Shown here in pieces: positions 2,061 to 54,902 of a stretch of 64,000 bases of DNA. The number at the start of each line of letters is the position of its first letter. Position 1 is the stretch's first letter. The notes beneath the pieces were generated by a model. That model saw only the letters and a list, made by a program, of their open reading frames with translations, was not told where the DNA came from and made no database searches. Position numbers and translations under genes: made by a program. Source of the stretch: Sulfurospirillum oryzae. Lineage in GTDB: Bacteria; Campylobacterota; Campylobacteria; Campylobacterales; Sulfurospirillaceae. Where the stretch lies: contig NZ_JANZKZ010000002.1 in assembly GCF_025770725.1 (NCBI RefSeq), forward strand, positions 372,001 through 436,000, given 5' to 3'.

Positions 2061-4700
2061 ATGAGAGTTACAAATTCACTTTTATTTAATACATCTCTTC
2101 GTAACTATCGCATTTCTACAGAGAAATTGTATGATATAAATCAACAGATATCTACTAAAATGAAAATACAAAATAGTTATGAAGATACAAGTGTGTATGT
2201 AGATGCTATGCGTCTTAGTAATGAAATTGATACTCTAGCACAATCTTCTGATAGCAGTAGTAAAGCTAAAACATTCGCTGATAATACGGATTCTACTTTA
2301 TCAAGTTTTAATACATCACTGGATCAATTTAAAGCAAAACTTGTTCAAGCTTCAAATACTTCAAATTCTTCAACAAGCTTACAAGCACTAGCTAATGACT
2401 TACAAGGTATCAAAGATCACTTAATTAACTTGGCCAATACTTCTATAAATGGTCAATTTTTATTTTCAGGTTCAGCATTATCTCAAAAGCCAATTGCCAG
2501 TGATGGTACGTATAAAGGTAATGCAGAAAATTTGACAGCAATGATAGGTTCTGGTGTCGAGCTTCCTTATAATATTACAGGTCAATCTCTTTTCTTGGGA
2601 AAAGATACAGATTATAACAGAGTGGTTTCTACTAATATATCAATGTACAATCAATCAAAATTACACCCTGATGTTATGACCAGTGATAGTCAAAATGCAG
2701 CCTCCTCAAAGGTATATTTGAAAGATACTGATACTATTCGTGATCTTGTTGGTGATACTAACAATAATGCAACAGATGACTCTAAGGCAGTTTTTTATCT
2801 CTCTGGTCGAAAAAGTAATGGCTCAACATTTTCTAATGTTATATCTCTTGACACCAGTTCAAAAGTCTCTGATTTGTTAGACAATATAGGAAATTCTTAT
2901 GGCAATACGGCAACAAATAAAATTGTAGATGTCAGTATGAATGCGCGTGGTCAGATAGAAGTCAAAGATTTGAAATCTGGAAGCCAACTTCTTGATATGA
3001 ATATTTTTGGTGCTATTGACCGTAATGCTCTCCCTGGTGAAACGGGCAATGCAAAACAAGTGATGAATGTAGATAACCTGTTGACAAAACCAAATGTTGA
3101 TATTATTGCGTTTAATAAGAGTAACTATGAAACAACTGCTTCTAGCCCTGATTTAACGATGCGCTCTGTTGCTGTCGTTTCAGGCACAGATGCCATAGAT
3201 TTTCCAATAAAAAATGTATCGAGTTCAAATATTACACCAACAACACTTTTAAATGGCATTTTCCCCTCTGATGTTGATCATATTGATTTTGGAGGAACAT
3301 CATTCTCAATTAATGGGAAAACGGTGCAAGATTTGATGACAGCTATTGAAACAGAGTATGGGTTAGGTGCAGGAGATGTTACATTATCAGGTGGTCGTAT
3401 GCTTGTTAATGATCCTACCAATACATTTTCTGCTTTTTTAGAACCTAAAAATGCTTCCAATGCATTAGCACATGGTGATCCGCTTCCTGATGCAATGAAC
3501 TATGCACGAAGAGGCTTTGAAAAAGATGGCAATACGCTTTCAAGTAATGTTTCACAAGTCGTCAAGAGTACAAGTGATTTTGCAACGGCAAGTACAAAAC
3601 TTGTTGATGTTGCGGGGGTAGACAGCTTAAATGGTAAGCAAATGGTGCTTAATTATACCGATAAAAATGGTGTCAAAAGAACAGGCACGCTTAATCTAGA
3701 TATCGCCGATACAACATTTTCTATTGATTTAAATGGAGATGGAAACACGACAGGTGCAAATGAAACTTTTTCTATTTATAATGGTCAAGGAGACCCTTTA
3801 AATTTAAAAACGACTGCTGACAAGATGACATACCAACAACTTAATGATCTCATCAGCATGGCAACTTCGGGTAATTTACCAAAACAAGGTGTTTCTACCA
3901 CGGCTCAAACGGCAATTAACAATGCAATTGCTTTTGGAGTAGCCGCAGATGCTGTCAATCTTGCTGCTCAAACGACAATAGCCAAAGCGGGTGTTTCCAC
4001 TGAAACGGCTAGTTATATTCAAAAAGCTATTGATGCGGGTATTATAAGAGACAATCCTGCATCAACCGCAGCTGAAGTGGCAAAAGCGACTACTGATTAT
4101 AACAACGCCATTGGGGACGCTAATATTGCAGAATATAATTATGCTGTTGGAACCGCCAAAAATAGCGTTGAAGTCAATTTAGATTATCAAGGGAAAATGA
4201 CTATTAAAGATAAAACAACTTCTGAATCTAAAATCGACTTTACCATGTATGACAAAAGTATAACTGATTTTACAGGTGTTGGAAGCTCTACACTCACGTT
4301 TATGGCGAATAATGCAGTCACGATTTCTAATCCATCAATCGACATGTTTAAACAAATGGATGAAATGATAGCAGCGGTTCGCACGGGGGCATTTCGTATG
4401 GATTCGACATCGGATGATCCGCGAAATATTGGTATCCAAAATTCACTTGCACAACTTGATCATATCGCAGATCATGTCACAAAAGCACAAACAAAAATCG
4501 GTGCTCTCACCAATGCATTGAATGATGCTAATACAAGATCTGAAATACTTAGTGTTAATGTTAAAGCAGTACAAGATAATGTCATAGGTGTTGATACAGC
4601 AGCAGCTTACTTGGAATATCAATCTATTACAACTTCATATCAAGCAATGTTATCGACGATGTCGAAGATAAATTCAATGTCTCTTTTAGATTACATGTAA
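2061..4700 (+). CDS. flgL: Flagellar hook-associated protein 3 (FlgL), long form
   Basis: FlgL is the hook-filament junction protein, exported by the flagellar type III system. The N-terminus (MRVTNSLLFNTSLRNY, then a coiled coil to about residue 140 ending NGQFLFSG) and the C-terminus (about 780-879, with DTAAAYLEYQSITTSYQAML) are the paired helical D0/D1 segments of the flagellin/FlgL family. The roughly 600-residue middle is surface-exposed, Thr/Ser/Asn-rich and variable. At 879 residues it is far longer than the enteric protein (about 317); Campylobacter forms are also long. The start has a GGAG site. The stop codon lies inside a TTACATGTAA palindrome. A sigma-28 promoter precedes it. Confidence 0.88.
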   Translation: MRVTNSLLFNTSLRNYRISTEKLYDINQQISTKMKIQNSYEDTSVYVDAMRLSNEIDTLAQSSDSSSKAKTFADNTDSTLSSFNTSLDQFKAKLVQASNTSNSSTSLQALANDLQGIKDHLINLANTSINGQFLFSGSALSQKPIASDGTYKGNAENLTAMIGSGVELPYNITGQSLFLGKDTDYNRVVSTNISMYNQSKLHPDVMTSDSQNAASSKVYLKDTDTIRDLVGDTNNNATDDSKAVFYLSGRKSNGSTFSNVISLDTSSKVSDLLDNIGNSYGNTATNKIVDVSMNARGQIEVKDLKSGSQLLDMNIFGAIDRNALPGETGNAKQVMNVDNLLTKPNVDIIAFNKSNYETTASSPDLTMRSVAVVSGTDAIDFPIKNVSSSNITPTTLLNGIFPSDVDHIDFGGTSFSINGKTVQDLMTAIETEYGLGAGDVTLSGGRMLVNDPTNTFSAFLEPKNASNALAHGDPLPDAMNYARRGFEKDGNTLSSNVSQVVKSTSDFATASTKLVDVAGVDSLNGKQMVLNYTDKNGVKRTGTLNLDIADTTFSIDLNGDGNTTGANETFSIYNGQGDPLNLKTTADKMTYQQLNDLISMATSGNLPKQGVSTTAQTAINNAIAFGVAADAVNLAAQTTIAKAGVSTETASYIQKAIDAGIIRDNPASTAAEVAKATTDYNNAIGDANIAEYNYAVGTAKNSVEVNLDYQGKMTIKDKTTSESKIDFTMYDKSITDFTGVGSSTLTFMANNAVTISNPSIDMFKQMDEMIAAVRTGAFRMDSTSDDPRNIGIQNSLAQLDHIADHVTKAQTKIGALTNALNDANTRSEILSVNVKAVQDNVIGVDTAAAYLEYQSITTSYQAMLSTMSKINSMSLLDYM

Positions 4701-4749
4701 TAATCTGTTATAATATCAACTCTATATTATTACATGTAAAGGATCTGCT

Positions 4750-12415: not shown

Positions 12416-12501
12416 AATAACCTCCCATACGAAAAGTTATACCTATGGTAGCACAAATTATAATTAAGAGTGCTATAAAAAAGAGATTACATGTAAGAGT
12501 G

Positions 12502-16861: not shown

Positions 16862-17965
16862 ATGGAGTGTTCGTATTTTGGAAAGTGTGGCAGTTGTACG
16901 CTTTATACAATGGACTATAACGCGCAGTGTGCGCATAAACAAGAGGTTATGCGTACGCTATTTGCACCTTTACATGTAAAAGAGTTTGACTTCTTTGCAT
17001 CACCCTCAGAACACTACCGTGGACGCTCTGAATTTCGCATTTGGAAAGAGGGCGATACGATCAGTTATGCTATGGGCGCTGTCGATAAAAAAGGTGCTGT
17101 GTGTATTGATGTCTGTCCTAAAGTTGAGATGAAAATTTACACTTTGATGCCCAAGCTTTTAAAGCAAATCGAAAGTTCACCATTACTTCGTGAAAAGCTT
17201 TTTGCCATAGAATTTTTGGCCTCCTCTGAACATCTTTTAGTGACTCTTATTTATCACAAGCCTTTACATGTAGAATGGGACAATGAAGCTAAAATGCTTG
17301 AGCAAATGTTTGGCATTTTTGTCATTGGCAGAAGCCGTGGCATCAAGCGTGTACTGACGCAAGATTTTGTAGAAGATCGTTTTGATATTGCCAGTAAAAC
17401 TTATCGTTACCACATTATTGAAGGAGGCTTTTCCCAACCCAATCGTTTGATGAATCAAAAGATGATTAGCTGGGTTTTAAGCCATCTTGAAAACTGTGAA
17501 GATTTGTTAGAGCTTTACTGCGGTTATGGCAATTTTACCATTCCAATGGCTGAAAACTTCAAAAAGGTTTTAGCTACTGAGATTTCTAAGACGTCTATTG
17601 CCTCAGCACTTCAAAACTGCAAGTTAAACGATACTCATAACATCACTTTTTTACGCATGAGTGCTGAAGAACTAACCTCTGCTTTAAAAAAAGAGCGTGA
17701 ATATAACCGCTTAAAGGGCATTAACCTTGATGATTACACTTTTTCGCATGTCTTTGTTGACCCGCCACGTTCTGGCATGGATGAAGCAAGCTTGGCGTTT
17801 ATCTCTCAGTTTGAGAATATCATCTACATTTCGTGCAACCCAGAGACGCTCAAGCGAGATTTGGAAATGCTTACATGTAACTATACCATAGAGCATTTTG
17901 CATTGTTTGATCAGTTTCCAAATACCGAACATTTGGAGTCTGGCGTCATTTTAAAACGAATCTAA
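16862..17965 (+). CDS. trmA: tRNA (uracil-5-)-methyltransferase TrmA
   Basis: SAM-dependent methylation of U54 in the tRNA T-loop. 367 residues. The N-terminal MECSYFGKCGSCTLY and central GGFSQPNRLMNQKM are typical of TrmA; the SAM site is LLELYCGYGNFTIPMA, then FVDPPRSGMD. The catalytic Cys lies in IYISCNPETLKRDL (about residue 324) and a Glu near the end (NTEHLESGVIL). The gene holds two exact TTACATGTAA copies (16970, 17871) and a variant at 17264. Its stop codon lies in the left arm of the terminator hairpin. Confidence 0.96.
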   Translation: MECSYFGKCGSCTLYTMDYNAQCAHKQEVMRTLFAPLHVKEFDFFASPSEHYRGRSEFRIWKEGDTISYAMGAVDKKGAVCIDVCPKVEMKIYTLMPKLLKQIESSPLLREKLFAIEFLASSEHLLVTLIYHKPLHVEWDNEAKMLEQMFGIFVIGRSRGIKRVLTQDFVEDRFDIASKTYRYHIIEGGFSQPNRLMNQKMISWVLSHLENCEDLLELYCGYGNFTIPMAENFKKVLATEISKTSIASALQNCKLNDTHNITFLRMSAEELTSALKKEREYNRLKGINLDDYTFSHVFVDPPRSGMDEASLAFISQFENIIYISCNPETLKRDLEMLTCNYTIEHFALFDQFPNTEHLESGVILKRI

Positions 17966-17989
17966 CCCTTTTACATGTAAAGGGTTAGA
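17961..17989. terminator. Shared bidirectional terminator of trmA and the chemoreceptor, centred on TTACATGTAA
   Basis: TCTAACCCTTTTACA pairs with TGTAAAGGGTTAGA (one unpaired T). The centre is TTACATGTAA (17971-17980). The TAA of trmA (17963-17965) lies in the left arm and the stop of the minus-strand chemoreceptor (17985-17987) in the right arm, so both genes end inside one hairpin. Confidence 0.85.
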
Positions 17990-21459: not shown

Positions 21460-21485
21460 TTCTTATCCTTACATGTAAAACAAAA

Positions 21486-28170: not shown

Positions 28171-29535
28171 ATGAGTTCTTGGACGCGTGCATCATGGAGA
28201 GAAAAACCAATTAAGCAACAACCATTGTATACTAATCAAGAAATGCTGAAAAGTGTTGAGCAAGAACTAAGTAAATATCCTCCGCTTGTCTTTGCGGGTG
28301 AAGTAAGACAACTTAAAGCTTCTTTGGCTGACGTTGTAGCAGGTAAAGCTTTCTTGCTTCAAGGTGGAGATTGTGCTGAGAGTTTTGCAGAGTTTAATGC
28401 TGTCAACATTCGCGATATGTTCAAAGTTATGCTTCAAATGGCTGTTGTTTTAACCTTTGCTGGAGGTTGTCCTATCGTTAAAGTAGGGCGTCTTGCAGGT
28501 CAGTTTGCCAAACCACGTTCATCTGATTATGAAGAGATGGATGGCGTTTCACTTCCAAGTTACCGTGGTGACATCATTAATGACATCGAATTTACCGAAG
28601 ATTCACGTGTTCCAAACCCAAAACGTATGCTTAAAGCCTACAACCAATCAGCCGCAACAATGAACCTTCTACGCGCATTTTCACGCGGTGGTTTGGCTGA
28701 CCTTCACCAAGTCCATAAATGGACACTAGGCTTTGTTTCTGAGAGTCCTTTAGGTGAGCGTTACCAACATCTTTGTGACCGTATCTCTGAAACATTGGCG
28801 TTTATGGAAGCGTGTGGCATCACTTCTTCTAACACACCAAATATCAACGAAACGGTCGTTTATACTTCACATGAAGCGTTACTCTTAAATTACGAAGAGG
28901 CGCTTACGCGTCAAGATAGCCTTACAAATGACTGGTACGACTGTTCGGCACACATGCTCTGGATCGGAGATCGCACACGTGATGTTGATGATGCGCATGT
29001 TGAGTTCCTTAGAGGTGTAAAAAATCCTATCGGCATTAAAGCAGGACCTACCATGACGGCTGAGAGTTTAATGAAGCTTATCAACAAACTCAACCCTGAA
29101 AATGAACCAGGACGTCTCAATATTATTGTGAGAATGGGTGCAGACAAAATCGAAAAAGAGTTCCCAAAACTTGTACGTGCTGTCAAAGAAGCAGGCGCAG
29201 AGGTTCTTTGGAGTATTGACCCAATGCATGGCAATACCATTAAAGCATCCAATAACTACAAAACACGCTCATTTGATGAAGTATTACGTGAAGTCAAAGG
29301 CTTCTTTAAAGTTCATGAAGAAGAGGGCACTTTCCCTGGTGGCGTTCACTTAGAAATGACAGGTCAAGATGTTACTGAGTGCATCGGTGGCGCACAAGAT
29401 ATTACCGAAGAAAAACTAGCACACCGCTATCATACACAGTGTGATCCTCGCCTCAACGCTAACCAAGCTTTAGAGCTTGCTTTCCTCATCGCAGACTCGC
29501 TTAAAGCAGCACGTCAAAGATTTCTAGCACACTAA
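28171..29535 (+). CDS. aroF: 3-deoxy-7-phosphoheptulonate synthase, class II
   Basis: First step of the shikimate pathway: PEP plus erythrose 4-phosphate to DAHP. 454 residues, the plant/Helicobacter type: [16 protein letters not shown] start, [40 protein letters not shown], and C-terminal [16 protein letters not shown] and [16 protein letters not shown]. These are the class II metal and PEP-binding segments. Own promoter likely (TATAAT near 28137). A perfect hairpin follows. Confidence 0.96.
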
Positions 29536-29542
29536 AAACTTC

Positions 29543-29579
29543 TTTGCATGTAAAGGTTAATAAAACCTTTACATGCAAA
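29543..29579. terminator. Perfect bidirectional hairpin with a TTTGCATGTAAA/TTTACATGCAAA pair
   Basis: A 16-bp perfect stem (29543-29558 with 29564-29579) and a 5-nt loop AATAA. Each arm holds a one-base variant of the window's repeated palindrome. It lies between the convergent stops of the DAHP synthase and the DnaJ-like gene, so it probably terminates both. Confidence 0.85.
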
Positions 29580-45682: not shown

Positions 45683-46813
45683 TTAACGTGGTATATGAAT
45701 GCGCGCTATATCAAAGATGCCATATTCAAAATCTTCATGACAGGCAAAACAGTTGGAAGCATCTTTTACATGTAAAGATTTAAAGGTGCTTTTTTCGATA
45801 GTTTGATGTGCTTCACGCCAATAAGGAACCTTGCTCATGGAAATAGGGCGCATGTCGCCTAAAGATTCTAACGTTTTAAAAGCAATCTTATGGGTTGAAG
45901 TCTCTGCACTGTGGGCTAAGAGATACTCTTTAATGCTATTTTGCTCACTTTTAGTAATGTTGTTTTCAGTGATTTTCTCACCAAAATGGTTATCCAATCC
46001 ATCCATTAAACGCACCCAAGAGTTAGATGGTAACATAAAAGGAGGGTAGTTTTTATGACATTTGCCACATTTTTCAAAAAAAGCACTGTTTTCACTCTTA
46101 TAATCTCTTTTTTCAAATCTGCTTTTTGTGAAAAATGTTTCATTTGAACTTGCTACAAAATAGAGTACCCCTAAAGACAGCACGATAACAGCATACGAAA
46201 AAAGATGTCGCACCAGAGAGATCGTTGTATCTTTTCCTTCTGCTTTTTTATACCCTGTAAGCATTGCAAAAACCATGTTGGTTTTATGATAAAACTGTTC
46301 AATTAAAACACCCACAATATGAATACTTGCCCAAAAAAAGAGAAGGTATGAAAGGAGGGCATGAAAAATGAATACCGCAGGCGAAAGCCTATAATAATGC
46401 TCATTTAAACCCGACAAAAGTCCACTGGCTTCTTGAATACCTTGAAGAATAAGTCCACTAAGCACTATCAAACTTCCAAGTCCTAGAACAATGAGCGTGA
46501 ACCAACTGGATGCAGCATTGTGTCCTGCGTATATTTTGCGCCACCTATTTGTCATTTTTTCGATGAAATAATGTTGCAAAGCATTCAGGCTTAACTTGAA
46601 TGTTTTAAACGTTGCATAATTTGGTCCAATAAATCCCCAAATAAGCCTAAAAAGTAACACTATGCCAAAGATAAGACCAAATGCGAGATGCCATCTAAAA
46701 AGACTATGATGAAAAGAAGTAACAAAAGAGAAGAAAAAAGAGGTTGCAATAATCCAATGAATAATGCGCGTACAAAGAGGCCAGACAAAAACTTCATAGG
46801 GTCTTTTATTCAT
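45683..46813 (-). CDS. Cytochrome b561-type membrane protein fused to a diheme cytochrome c domain
   Basis: 376 residues. The first 240 are a cytochrome b561-like membrane domain (RIIHWIIATSFFFSF, FRWHLAFGLIFG and later His for heme b). After about residue 245 comes a periplasmic diheme c region with CGKCH (KNYPPFMLPSNSWVRLMDGL, as in the DHC/SHP family) and a second CFACH near the C-terminus. It is likely to pass electrons between quinone and periplasmic carriers. Its neighbours are a cytochrome c lipoprotein and an SQR-like flavoprotein. An exact TTTACATGTAAA at 45765 encodes LHVK. Confidence 0.87.
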   Translation of the reverse strand: MNKRPYEVFVWPLCTRIIHWIIATSFFFSFVTSFHHSLFRWHLAFGLIFGIVLLFRLIWGFIGPNYATFKTFKLSLNALQHYFIEKMTNRWRKIYAGHNAASSWFTLIVLGLGSLIVLSGLILQGIQEASGLLSGLNEHYYRLSPAVFIFHALLSYLLFFWASIHIVGVLIEQFYHKTNMVFAMLTGYKKAEGKDTTISLVRHLFSYAVIVLSLGVLYFVASSNETFFTKSRFEKRDYKSENSAFFEKCGKCHKNYPPFMLPSNSWVRLMDGLDNHFGEKITENNITKSEQNSIKEYLLAHSAETSTHKIAFKTLESLGDMRPISMSKVPYWREAHQTIEKSTFKSLHVKDASNCFACHEDFEYGIFDIARIHIPR

Positions 46814-51975: not shown

Positions 51976-52446
51976 ATGGAACATATCAGAAGAGTTTTAT
52001 CGGTTATCGTTTTGAACGAAGATGGCGTTTTATCGCGTATATCAGGACTTTTTGCTGGACGTGGTTACAATATTGACTCGCTCACGGTTGCTCCAATACC
52101 TAAAACAAATTTGTCACGATTAACCATCGTAACATCAGGAAGCACTCCTGTTTTAGAGCAGATTGTTAAACAGTTGCATAAATTGATTCCAACCTATAAA
52201 GTCATTGAATCAGGTCAGTTTGTTGAAAAAGAGATGGCTCTTGTCAAAATTCCTTTAAGTGAAGATTTTAATGGCCTTGATGCCATGCTTAAAGCTTATA
52301 ATGGAACCATTGCAAGCAGTGGTGAAGATTTTATTGTCGTAATGGTTGCTGATGACTACGATCGCATTGATAACTTTTTAAAAGCGGTTAAAAAATACAA
52401 CCCAACAGACATCGTAAGAAGCGGCTCAGTCGCAATGGATATTTAA
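51976..52446 (+). CDS. ilvH: Acetolactate synthase, small regulatory subunit
   Basis: 156 residues. An N-terminal ACT domain (RRVLSVIVLNEDGVLSRISGLFAGRGYNIDSL in two halves) for valine feedback binding, then a C-terminal ACT-like regulatory domain. It activates and feedback-regulates the large subunit. Its stop overlaps the lpxD start by 1 nt (TAATG). Confidence 0.96.
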   Translation: MEHIRRVLSVIVLNEDGVLSRISGLFAGRGYNIDSLTVAPIPKTNLSRLTIVTSGSTPVLEQIVKQLHKLIPTYKVIESGQFVEKEMALVKIPLSEDFNGLDAMLKAYNGTIASSGEDFIVVMVADDYDRIDNFLKAVKKYNPTDIVRSGSVAMDI

Positions 52447-53396
52447 TGAAACTCAGCCTTCTTGCTCAAGCAATTTCGCTTGAATTTTCTGGTTCCGATA
52501 TGGAAGTTACCTCTTTTGCGACACTCAAAGAGGCAACTTCTTCTCAGATTGCTTTTTTTGAAAATCCAAAGCTTTTAGCTGATTTAGAAAATACTAAAGC
52601 GGGTGTCGTCATCCTTGCACCCACCTACAAAGAGCATCTTCCCAAAAGTTCTCAAGCACTTTTAAGTGACAATCCTCATCTAAGTATGGCGTACGCCAGT
52701 GCCTATTTTGCTAAAAAAGCCTTTGATACGTCCAAGCCTGCTACGATTTCAGACAAAAGTAGCATTGCGCCTCATGTTGTTATTGGTAGCGGAACTGTCA
52801 TAGAAGAGGGCACTTATATTATGCCTAATGTCACCATTGGAGCGAATGTACGTATCGGAAAAAATGTACATATCTTCCCTAATGTTGTCATTTACGATGA
52901 TGCAATCATCAAAGATAACTGCATCATTCAAGCAGGTGCTATTATAGGCAGTGATGGTTTTGGCTATGCTCATACAAAGATGGGTGAGCATATTAAAATT
53001 CATCATAGTGGCAATGTCATTCTTGAAGAGGATGTTGAAGTAGGATCTAACACAACGATTGATCGTGCTGTTTTTGGATCAACCATTATCAAAAAAGGAA
53101 CAAAAATAGACAACCTTGTTCAAATCGGACATAATTGCGAAATTGGACAGGCGTGTATTTTAGTTGCTCAAACGGGTATTTCAGGTTCGACAAAACTTGG
53201 ACGCAATGTTGTTATGGGTGGGCAGAGTGCTACGGCAGGACATTTAGAAATTGGTGATTTTGCAACCGTTGCTGCACGCGGTGGCGTTTCAAAATCAATT
53301 CAAGGCGGCAAAATTTACGGTGGTTTTCCACTTACTTTACAAACAGAGTGGTTAAAGACGCAAGCGAAACTCGCAAGATTTTTTACAAAGAATTAA
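52446..53396 (+). CDS. lpxD: UDP-3-O-(3-hydroxyacyl)glucosamine N-acyltransferase
   Basis: Third step of lipid A synthesis. 316 residues: an N-terminal uridine-binding domain (1-100), then a left-handed beta helix of hexapeptide repeats (VVIGSGTVIEEGTYIMPNVTIGANV and following), with the active-site His in VQIGHNCEIG and DGFGYAHT. C-terminal ITGGFPLTLQTEWLK-like helix. Translationally coupled to ilvH, an unusual pairing with amino-acid synthesis. Confidence 0.95.
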   Translation: MKLSLLAQAISLEFSGSDMEVTSFATLKEATSSQIAFFENPKLLADLENTKAGVVILAPTYKEHLPKSSQALLSDNPHLSMAYASAYFAKKAFDTSKPATISDKSSIAPHVVIGSGTVIEEGTYIMPNVTIGANVRIGKNVHIFPNVVIYDDAIIKDNCIIQAGAIIGSDGFGYAHTKMGEHIKIHHSGNVILEEDVEVGSNTTIDRAVFGSTIIKKGTKIDNLVQIGHNCEIGQACILVAQTGISGSTKLGRNVVMGGQSATAGHLEIGDFATVAARGGVSKSIQGGKIYGGFPLTLQTEWLKTQAKLARFFTKN

Positions 53397-53408
53397 AAGG
53401 ATTACATT

Positions 53409-53654
53409 ATGGGCGGAAAAAACACTATACTTACTAAGTTTCCATTAGCAGGAACAAAAAATGGAATTATCTCTATTTCTCATTTGGAAGAGCCTTATGG
53501 AAGTGGATCATTTCCTGTTGTTAGTATTGGTATTGCACTCAAGAAAAGTGGTAATGAGCCTGATTGGAAAGCGCATATCCCTTACGAAAATCTTGATGAG
53601 CTTATTAATGCTCTTCAAGATGCGAAAGCACGTTTTGGAACAGAGTCAAAATAA
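53409..53654 (+). CDS. Conserved small hypothetical protein
   Basis: 81 residues beginning MGGKNTILTKFPLAG, soluble, with no signal peptide or membrane segment. The central ISHLEEPYGSGSFPVVSIGI and C-terminal WKAHIPYENLDELINALQDA suggest a small alpha/beta domain. Start ATG at 53409 with AAAGGATT upstream. It lies 12 nt after lpxD and before the operon terminator. Function not known to me. Confidence 0.75.
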   Translation: MGGKNTILTKFPLAGTKNGIISISHLEEPYGSGSFPVVSIGIALKKSGNEPDWKAHIPYENLDELINALQDAKARFGTESK

Positions 53655-53660
53655 TCTTTT

Positions 53661-53697
53661 TGAGTTTTACATGTAATATCTTTACATGTAAAACTCA
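53661..53697. terminator. Bidirectional terminator made of two inverted TTACATGTAA copies
   Basis: A perfect 16-bp stem (53661-53676 with 53682-53697) and 5-nt loop TATCT. Each arm contains a complete TTACATGTAA (53667, 53682). It lies between the convergent ends of the ilvB-lpxD operon and the GltD-like gene and is flanked by T-runs on both strands. Confidence 0.88.
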
Positions 53698-53705
53698 TTT
53701 TAACT

Positions 53706-54902
53706 TTAGAGTGTATCAATATACTCTTCAATGGCAACGGCGACACGTTTTGAAAACGCTACAGCTTCGACAACTGTCCTAGCGCCTGTTACAACATCTC
53801 CTGAAGCAAAAACACCCTCCATCGTTGTACGTCCACTCTCATCTGTAATCACTAACCCCTTACCATCAACTTCAATTTGTCGTGCAGATTGAATAATATG
53901 GTCATTTGGGTTCTGACTGATTGCGATTAGGACAGAATTTGCCTCTAACAATCCTTTTTCATCGCTTCCATCTGTACTACTGTAAATAACACCTTGTTCC
54001 GTAATTTCAATGGGCTGTTTATAGAGGTCAAACTTTACACCATCTATTTTGGCACATTCAACTTCATGTTTTGAGGCAGGAATATCATCCATTCCTTTTC
54101 GATACATAATAATAACCTCATGTGCGCCATGACGAACTGCCGTTCTTGCCACATCCATTGCAACATTGCCCGCACCCAAAACGACTACGGTATGTCCTAA
54201 ATGATACACAGAAGGATTTTTGAGATAATCAATAGCAAAATGAACATGGCCTAAACTTTCGCCTTTAATCCCAAGTTTTTTAGGAGACCAAACACCTGTA
54301 CTAATAAATATCGCTTTAAAATCATCACGGAAAAGGTCACTCACAGTAATGTTTTTACCAATCGTGATATTAGGTCTAATCGTGACATCAAGCTGACCAA
54401 GCTTTGTTTCAATGGTATCTAAAATCGTTTTACTCAATCTAAATTCAGGAATGCCGTAGCGCAAGACACCGCCGATTTTATCGTGGGCATCATACATCGT
54501 AATTTCATAACCCTTTGCGCCTAAAATAAATGCCAGCGCAATTCCAGCAGGACCGCTTCCAATAATAGCAACTTTTTTACCATTTCTAAGAGGCTTCTCA
54601 AACTGAAGGTCATTCATATAAAGATCAGAAATATAATTTTCAATGCTCCCTACACTAACCGCTGTTCCTTTTTTATTGAGAACACAATGCCCTTCACAAT
54701 GTTTTTCATGAGGACAAACCATAGAACAGATAACAGAAAGTGGATTATTTTCAAAAAGCATTTTTCCCGCTTTTTTAATATCTCCTGCTAAAAAGAGGCT
54801 GATCATCTCAGGAATTGGAGTTCCCACTGGACAGCCTGATCGACATGATGGTTTTTTACAACCTAAGCATGTTTTAGCAAGTGTGATGACATATTTATTC
54901 AT
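53706..54902 (-). CDS. GltD-like NAD(P)H oxidoreductase (glutamate synthase small-subunit family)
   Basis: 398 residues. Two N-terminal cysteine clusters (CLGCKKPSCRSGC; CSMVCPHEKHCEGHC) for Fe-S centres, the FAD fold KVAIIGSGPAGIALAF, GGVLRYGIPEFRL, and the NAD(P)H fold VVVLGAGNVAMDVARTA, with a closing EGVFASGDVVTGARTVVEA. About 60-80 residues shorter than GltD, and no gltB is beside it. It may serve as an electron-input subunit for another enzyme. Possible NfnB/SudA-type role. Confidence 0.85.
   Translation of the reverse strand: MNKYVITLAKTCLGCKKPSCRSGCPVGTPIPEMISLFLAGDIKKAGKMLFENNPLSVICSMVCPHEKHCEGHCVLNKKGTAVSVGSIENYISDLYMNDLQFEKPLRNGKKVAIIGSGPAGIALAFILGAKGYEITMYDAHDKIGGVLRYGIPEFRLSKTILDTIETKLGQLDVTIRPNITIGKNITVSDLFRDDFKAIFISTGVWSPKKLGIKGESLGHVHFAIDYLKNPSVYHLGHTVVVLGAGNVAMDVARTAVRHGAHEVIIMYRKGMDDIPASKHEVECAKIDGVKFDLYKQPIEITEQGVIYSSTDGSDEKGLLEANSVLIAISQNPNDHIIQSARQIEVDGKGLVITDESGRTTMEGVFASGDVVTGARTVVEAVAFSKRVAVAIEEYIDTL

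Follow-up and report, generated by a model that had tools for sequence, protein, structure and literature searches.

Between two convergent genes of Sulfurospirillum oryzae lies a hairpin in which each arm carries one complete copy of a 10-bp word, TTACATGTAA, that recurs throughout the genome. This arrangement raises the question of whether the word exists to build terminators or whether the hairpin has been built from a word that the genome keeps for another purpose. We addressed this question for a 64-kb window (the whole stretch of DNA analysed, on contig 2 of a 2.63-Mb genome) and for related genomes.

The hairpin occupies positions 53661–53697 and reads TGAGTTTTACATGTAA-TATCT-TTACATGTAAAACTCA. 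All 16 of its stem pairs are perfect, the loop is 5 nt long, and TTACATGTAA lies in both the 5′ arm (53667–53676) and the 3′ arm (53682–53691). Upstream, lpxD (52446–53396, + strand) is followed by a small conserved gene of 81 amino acids (53409–53654, + strand), whose stop codon falls 6 nt ahead of the hairpin. On the other side, an oxidoreductase-like gene of 398 amino acids (53706–54902, − strand) points its 3′ end towards it. The predicted folding energy is −20.5 kcal/mol, with z = −6.3 on the + strand (200 shuffles) and −7.4 on the − strand, and a consensus terminator scan recovered identical coordinates with the highest pair number of any site in 20 kb. Sequence, fold and scan agree with the preliminary description of this site as a perfect 16-bp stem with a 5-nt loop and a full motif copy per arm, situated between convergent genes. 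The same description had attributed this design to a second hairpin, which was borne out at 29543–29579: its arms are TTGCATGTAA and TTACATGCAA, the stem is 16 bp and the loop 5 nt (−21.4 kcal/mol, z = −9.1), and the flanking genes end at 29535 (+) and 29581 (−).

The orientation of the two copies carries less weight than had been proposed. Since TTACATGTAA reads the same as its reverse complement, nearby copies can pair whatever their orientation, and the "inverted" arrangement that had been offered as evidence is automatic and uninformative. One copy per arm is alone no evidence of design. What is non-trivial is that six further pairs extend the stem outwards, that the gap is of loop size, that the genes converge on the site, and that the stem covaries across species.

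Using lpxD as an anchor for locating the orthologous hairpin in relatives, we found it downstream of this gene in the majority of genus genomes and in some from outside the genus. The lpxD locus of S. oryzae shares 89–90% identity with those of Sulfurospirillum diekertiae JPD-1 and of a related metagenome-assembled genome. In an alignment of 17 genomes, 95% of cells are paired, and both sides have changed in five stem pairs (13 cells), all of them outside the palindrome core. The covariation score of the stem was reached by none of 500 shuffles and exceeds that of all slid versions. A single change in the G014 hairpin results in a G-U pair, and in the motif-poor genomes G009 and G020 one hairpin copy is degenerate while a stem of at least 14 bp is kept. 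Judged from these aligned sequences, the base pairing of the hairpin appears to be under selection that is independent of the palindrome's own role.

The 53661–53697 element is likely a terminator-type RNA hairpin, predicted to end both convergent transcripts. It resembles intrinsic terminators in being a stable, covarying hairpin soon after convergent stop codons, and some relatives show clearer U-tract runs after the orthologous structure. It differs from typical intrinsic terminators in its low G+C content (4 of 16 stem pairs are G-C), in a weak U-tract, and in a stem whose sequence is dictated by a dispersed palindrome. The stem is followed on the + strand by TTTTAACTTT, a modest T-tract, and on the − strand by AAAAAGATTATTTT, where a T-tract is lacking directly after the stem.

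How unusual is the word itself? In 456 kb sampled, TTACATGTAA shows the strongest excess of any 10-mer, with 175 copies compared with 0.7 expected under a third-order Markov model (~250-fold), and the genome as a whole contains 1056 copies as against 3 of the reversed control. Together with the conservation of individual sites described below, these figures refute an artefact of chance or composition, an explanation to which we attach practically no probability. Flanking preferences lengthen the word to CTTTACATGTAAAG. One-base variants are few, and 36 of 61 fall at the outer two positions (positions 1–2), where 25% would be expected. ACATGT outside the core TACATGTA is not enriched in the 456 kb sampled from this genome; a 6-bp restriction-type site was rejected on this ground, although G021 and G030 do show such an excess. 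In those two genomes (L281–L284 in G021; L285, L290 and L291 in G030), ACATGT is enriched 4–5 fold in varied contexts, such as TGACATGTAA, which suggests a looser or changing specificity, unlike that of S. oryzae. The openly licensed literature that we searched, outside which most subscription papers lie, held no earlier report of TTACATGTAA as a bacterial genome motif and nothing relevant on Sulfurospirillum methylation or uptake.

Copies are distributed unevenly. Density is 1.82 per kb in intergenic DNA versus 0.29 in coding DNA, a roughly six-fold difference, and among intergenic classes it reaches 4.5 per kb between convergent genes, 1.95 between co-directional genes and 0.59 between divergent ones; ~70% of copies are nevertheless inside genes. 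This distribution bears on the proposal that TTACATGTAA is the binding site of an abundant DNA-binding protein, either a nucleoid organiser or a global regulator, with the hairpins as by-products. A palindrome of 10–14 bp would suit a dimer, and the sharp consensus and strong site-level constraint would be expected of such a site. However, among intergenic gaps the motif is scarcest in the divergent ones, which bear promoters, and densest in convergent ones, and most of its copies are found within genes, making this proposal improbable.

If the hairpin at 53661–53697 reflects more than high local density, pairs of copies should be commoner than single copies predict. The genome contains 35 TTACATGTAA pairs with gaps of 0–30 nt, 28 of them intergenic and seven coding. 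A uniform-density comparison (35 versus 13) was set aside, as it is inflated by the clustering of copies between genes, and copies were instead reshuffled among intergenic positions of equal class, which preserves density. Intergenic pairs with gaps of 2–13 nt were then in clear excess (20 seen versus 7.1 expected, P = 5e-5), whereas those with gaps of 14–30 nt (8 versus 8.9) and coding pairs (7 versus 6.3 expected from coding density) were at the null. All of these figures are approximate, since gene boundaries were called by a simple ORF finder and the null was extrapolated from a 17% sample. The excess is thus confined to intergenic hairpin geometry, and the earlier suggestion that paired copies exceed single-copy expectation holds, with this class as the source of the excess. 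The window also contains an exact pair with a gap of 29 nt (4691–4739), the first copy of which (4691–4700) ends the gene at 2061–4700 by providing its TAA stop codon (Tyr-Met-stop), as it likewise does in G012, G014 and G023. A further recurrent hairpin has two motif copies flanking GGA...TCC, for example TTACATGTAAGGAAAAATCCTTACATGTAA (centres L060, L063, L069, L072, L073, L074, L075 and L081); it is mostly found between convergent genes, and the form is also present in G012 and G013.

Could the element be a family of terminator hairpins and nothing else, with the genome-wide copies as its scattered remains? Hairpins do recur, several of them with a common inner sequence, GGAAAAATCC, and pairs outlast single copies in motif-poor genomes: G009 retains four pairs among 49 copies, G011 nine among 168 and G020 twelve among 238, compared with 0.03, 0.3 and 0.6 expected from a uniform density that ignores intergenic clustering. 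On the other hand, ~93% of the copies in S. oryzae are outside any pair within 30 nt, ~70% are in genes, and single coding copies are as strictly conserved as intergenic ones. We therefore consider a terminator-only origin very unlikely.

The conservation of single copies is striking in its own right. Copies of S. oryzae are exact in the orthologous 64-kb region at 21 of 22 sites in G023, 20 of 22 in G014 and 20 of 23 in G012, while flanking 10-mers are exact at 21–27% in the same comparisons. G012 and G023, which are 83% identical to each other, share 23 of 23 copies exactly, and across these comparisons of species at 83% identity 87–100% of aligned copies are unchanged. In contrast, only 1 of 18 copies is exact in G009 (81% identity) and 4 of 13 in G020, and the motif sites of G009 have diverged beyond their flanks (3.4 versus 2.3 differences, P = 0.013). 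Within the window, the single intergenic copies at 12487–12496 and 21469–21478 are both exact in G012, G014 and G023, and the latter is altered in G009 and G020; another single copy (17971–17980) sits between convergent genes that end at 17965 and 17985. The coding copy at 45766–45775 specifies Leu-His-Val-Lys, which is retained as LHVK in G012, G014 and G023 and replaced by LPIK in G020 and SPIK in G009. At coding copies more generally, Leu-His-Val-Lys or a similar peptide is mostly common to the motif-rich species, and G009 often has others. At many places the element determines which amino acids a protein carries, with Leu-His-Val where motif-poor relatives differ. Conservation at the copies themselves indicates that selection or drive acts on the DNA word.

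The word is a property of the family. Of 44 Sulfurospirillaceae genomes, 43 show an excess of the core TACATGTA (92–1727 copies versus 16–74 for the control), and sampled genomes from other families of the order hold 0–6 copies of TTACATGTAA. The one genome that lacks the excess, G026 (28 versus 25), contains 166 copies of a different word, TATCATGATA, against 2 of its control; this genome also encodes a D12 methyltransferase that is 49–51% identical (L087–L091). A third form, CTACATGTAG, is dominant in G029, G036 and G066 and occurs alongside TTACATGTAA in G025 and G030. Within the genus, motif copies have decayed in two lineages. A tree of 32.5 kb of DNA places G009 and G020 as sisters with support of 100/100, and three independent losses, as read from an LpxD tree, were rejected in favour of two events.

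An orphan D12-class adenine methyltransferase is a candidate partner of the word. The enzyme of S. oryzae (325 amino acids, G000:C3:196220-197197) matches Pfam PF02086 with E = 4e-41 and shows FAGSG and DPPY motifs in an alignment; a PDB sequence search returned no match. Its gene is located between CheY-like and transglutaminase-like genes in motif-rich genomes from the main clades of the genus, and it is absent from this conserved locus in G009, G020, G010 and G011; presence and absence were confirmed with a specific profile over 44 genomes. Among genus genomes that are at least 90% complete, carriers hold more TACATGTA than non-carriers (P = 0.0006 in a rank test that ignores relatedness), and the gene is present in 14 of the 16 such genomes with more than 600 copies, the two lacking it being G017 and G010. 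The association has exceptions in both directions. One clade retains the word although it lacks the enzyme: G001 and G017 have 840 and 934 copies without the enzyme, as does G027, outside the genus, with 567, and several g4 genomes encode a D12 relative and have few copies. Because G009 and G020 are sisters, the link is backed by no more than two loss events within the genus, and we regard it as a lead, not as proof. The gene is split into two frames at G006:C239:3555-4603, in a motif-rich genome that is 78% complete, by either a frameshift or an assembly error, and remnants of D12 methyltransferase genes at G025:C10:84224-84490 and G024:C13:45140-45555 suggest repeated gain and loss.

Competence genes follow a different pattern. 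The family as a whole encodes ComEC and T2SSF, S. oryzae and the motif-poor genomes included, and a pilus cluster and pilin-like genes add to the evidence for competence machinery. Since ComEC and T2SSF persist in motif-poor genomes, and since the genes of the pilus cluster and those on the comEC side are intact and of full length in G009 and G020, loss of competence was rejected as an explanation for the loss of the motif. Beside priA, two pilin-like genes (L109:12392-13375) diverge fast, being 41–78% identical among close species where their neighbours are about 85–98% identical, and are candidates for a DNA-binding minor pilin.

The preliminary description had further proposed a history like that of the uptake sequences of Neisseria and Haemophilus. 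Abundance, intergenic enrichment, terminator pairs, dialects and conservation do match Neisserial DUS, and to this extent the proposal stands as plausible. All of these features except the pairs would also fit HIP1, and a methylation-linked palindrome of the HIP1 type accounts for the element's history about equally well in our analysis. The palindromic form, a loss that goes with that of the orphan methyltransferase, and the intact state of the examined competence genes in motif-poor genomes favour such a methylation-linked palindrome over a plain uptake word read by a receptor.

We tentatively prefer a model with two layers, in which our confidence is a little below even: a terminator hairpin formed from a dispersed palindrome, and a family-specific mark of self-DNA that acts through methylation and competence. 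The hairpin would be a terminator for two convergent transcripts, made of two close copies of the palindrome. The palindrome itself (core TACATGTA, genus form CTTTACATGTAAAG) would be the self-DNA mark, with ~1000 copies kept by a process acting on sequence. The orphan D12-class enzyme may modify the ACATGT core, and a competence pilus/ComEC system may prefer DNA that bears the motif, such that transformation by DNA from kin would restore mutated copies; this would be similar to RAATTY in Campylobacter jejuni, with a longer word that accumulates. Once the marking or reading system was lost, coding copies would decay and mainly those in terminator stems would remain. Hairpin structure and position, the pair excess in hairpin geometry, covariation, site conservation, dialects and the decay in two lineages are the observed elements on which this model builds. 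For the mechanism, we infer that the D12 enzyme marks and the competence system reads, and this is the version we prefer.

A realistic competitor, though one we find somewhat doubtful, is that the word is made and kept within the cell by a process tied to methylation, such as methyl-directed repair or recombination; it would then play no part in uptake, and the terminator pairs would be later co-options. Such a HIP1-like origin agrees with the palindromic form of the word, with the alternative palindromes of relatives (TATCATGATA in G026 and CTACATGTAG in others), with the lack of ACATGT enrichment beyond TACATGTA in S. oryzae and with the bias of variants towards the ends of the word (36 of 61 at its outer two positions, where 25% would be expected). 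An association with an orphan methyltransferase that admits exceptions is also what Elhai found for HIP1, according to passages of PMC4390886. However, the six-fold intergenic enrichment and the terminator pairing resemble uptake sequences, and G001 and G017 keep the motif without the D12 enzyme. We place a function in uptake or self-recognition, probably linked to methylation, slightly above a HIP-like intracellular role, and we hold it likely that the pairs serve as terminators. It is also possible, if rather unlikely, that the two coincide: a long palindrome would be methylated by the orphan D12 enzyme and recognised by the competence system, and this single word would serve both for uptake and as a methylation word of the HIP type. 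If so, the dialects, the paired terminators and the decay after enzyme loss would join two classes of iterated oligonucleotides that have so far been treated apart. The element would also extend genome marks of the uptake or HIP type to a family without an earlier report in the literature searched. With one candidate enzyme and sister genomes that either carry or lack the word, the genus provides a natural contrast that makes the question of copy maintenance testable in free-living, non-pathogenic bacteria.

Three known systems offer points of comparison. Neisseria DUS are over-represented, have conserved copies and dialects with a constant core, and form rho-independent terminators as inverted pairs (PMC2397512, PMC3630211). 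The Sulfurospirillum word is like Neisserial DUS and Pasteurellaceae USS in its copy number of hundreds to thousands, high conservation, constant-core dialects and terminator pairs. Unlike DUS and USS, which are not palindromes (PMC1939737), it is palindromic, its loss is accompanied by loss of a methyltransferase, and both its role in uptake and a receptor for it are putative. HIP1 is described in passages of PMC4390886 as an iterated palindrome with alternate palindromes and an association, with exceptions, with a cognate methyltransferase; its deviations are biased to the ends, and the excess of the inner site vanishes once the full word is subtracted. On the basis of those passages, the Sulfurospirillum word resembles HIP1 and the alternate HIPs as a palindrome at very high excess, with different palindromes in genomes poor in the main one and with end-biased deviations. 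It differs in sequence and phylum, in the candidate D12 adenine enzyme, and in its strong enrichment between genes, convergent ones above all, and its terminator pairs, a pairing that the PMC4390886 passages do not describe for HIP1. Finally, Campylobacter jejuni takes up DNA in which RAATTY, a site of six bases that occurs about 28,000 times in C. coli, is methylated by CtsM (PMC8627207, PMC8468864). Here the likeness lies in the shared phylum, an orphan adenine methyltransferase (as candidate marker in Sulfurospirillum), a palindromic site, and a T2SS/T4P-like system with ComEC; the Sulfurospirillum word is unlike RAATTY in being 10–14 bp long and in having about 1000 copies. The element shares features of DUS, HIP1 and CtsM/RAATTY.
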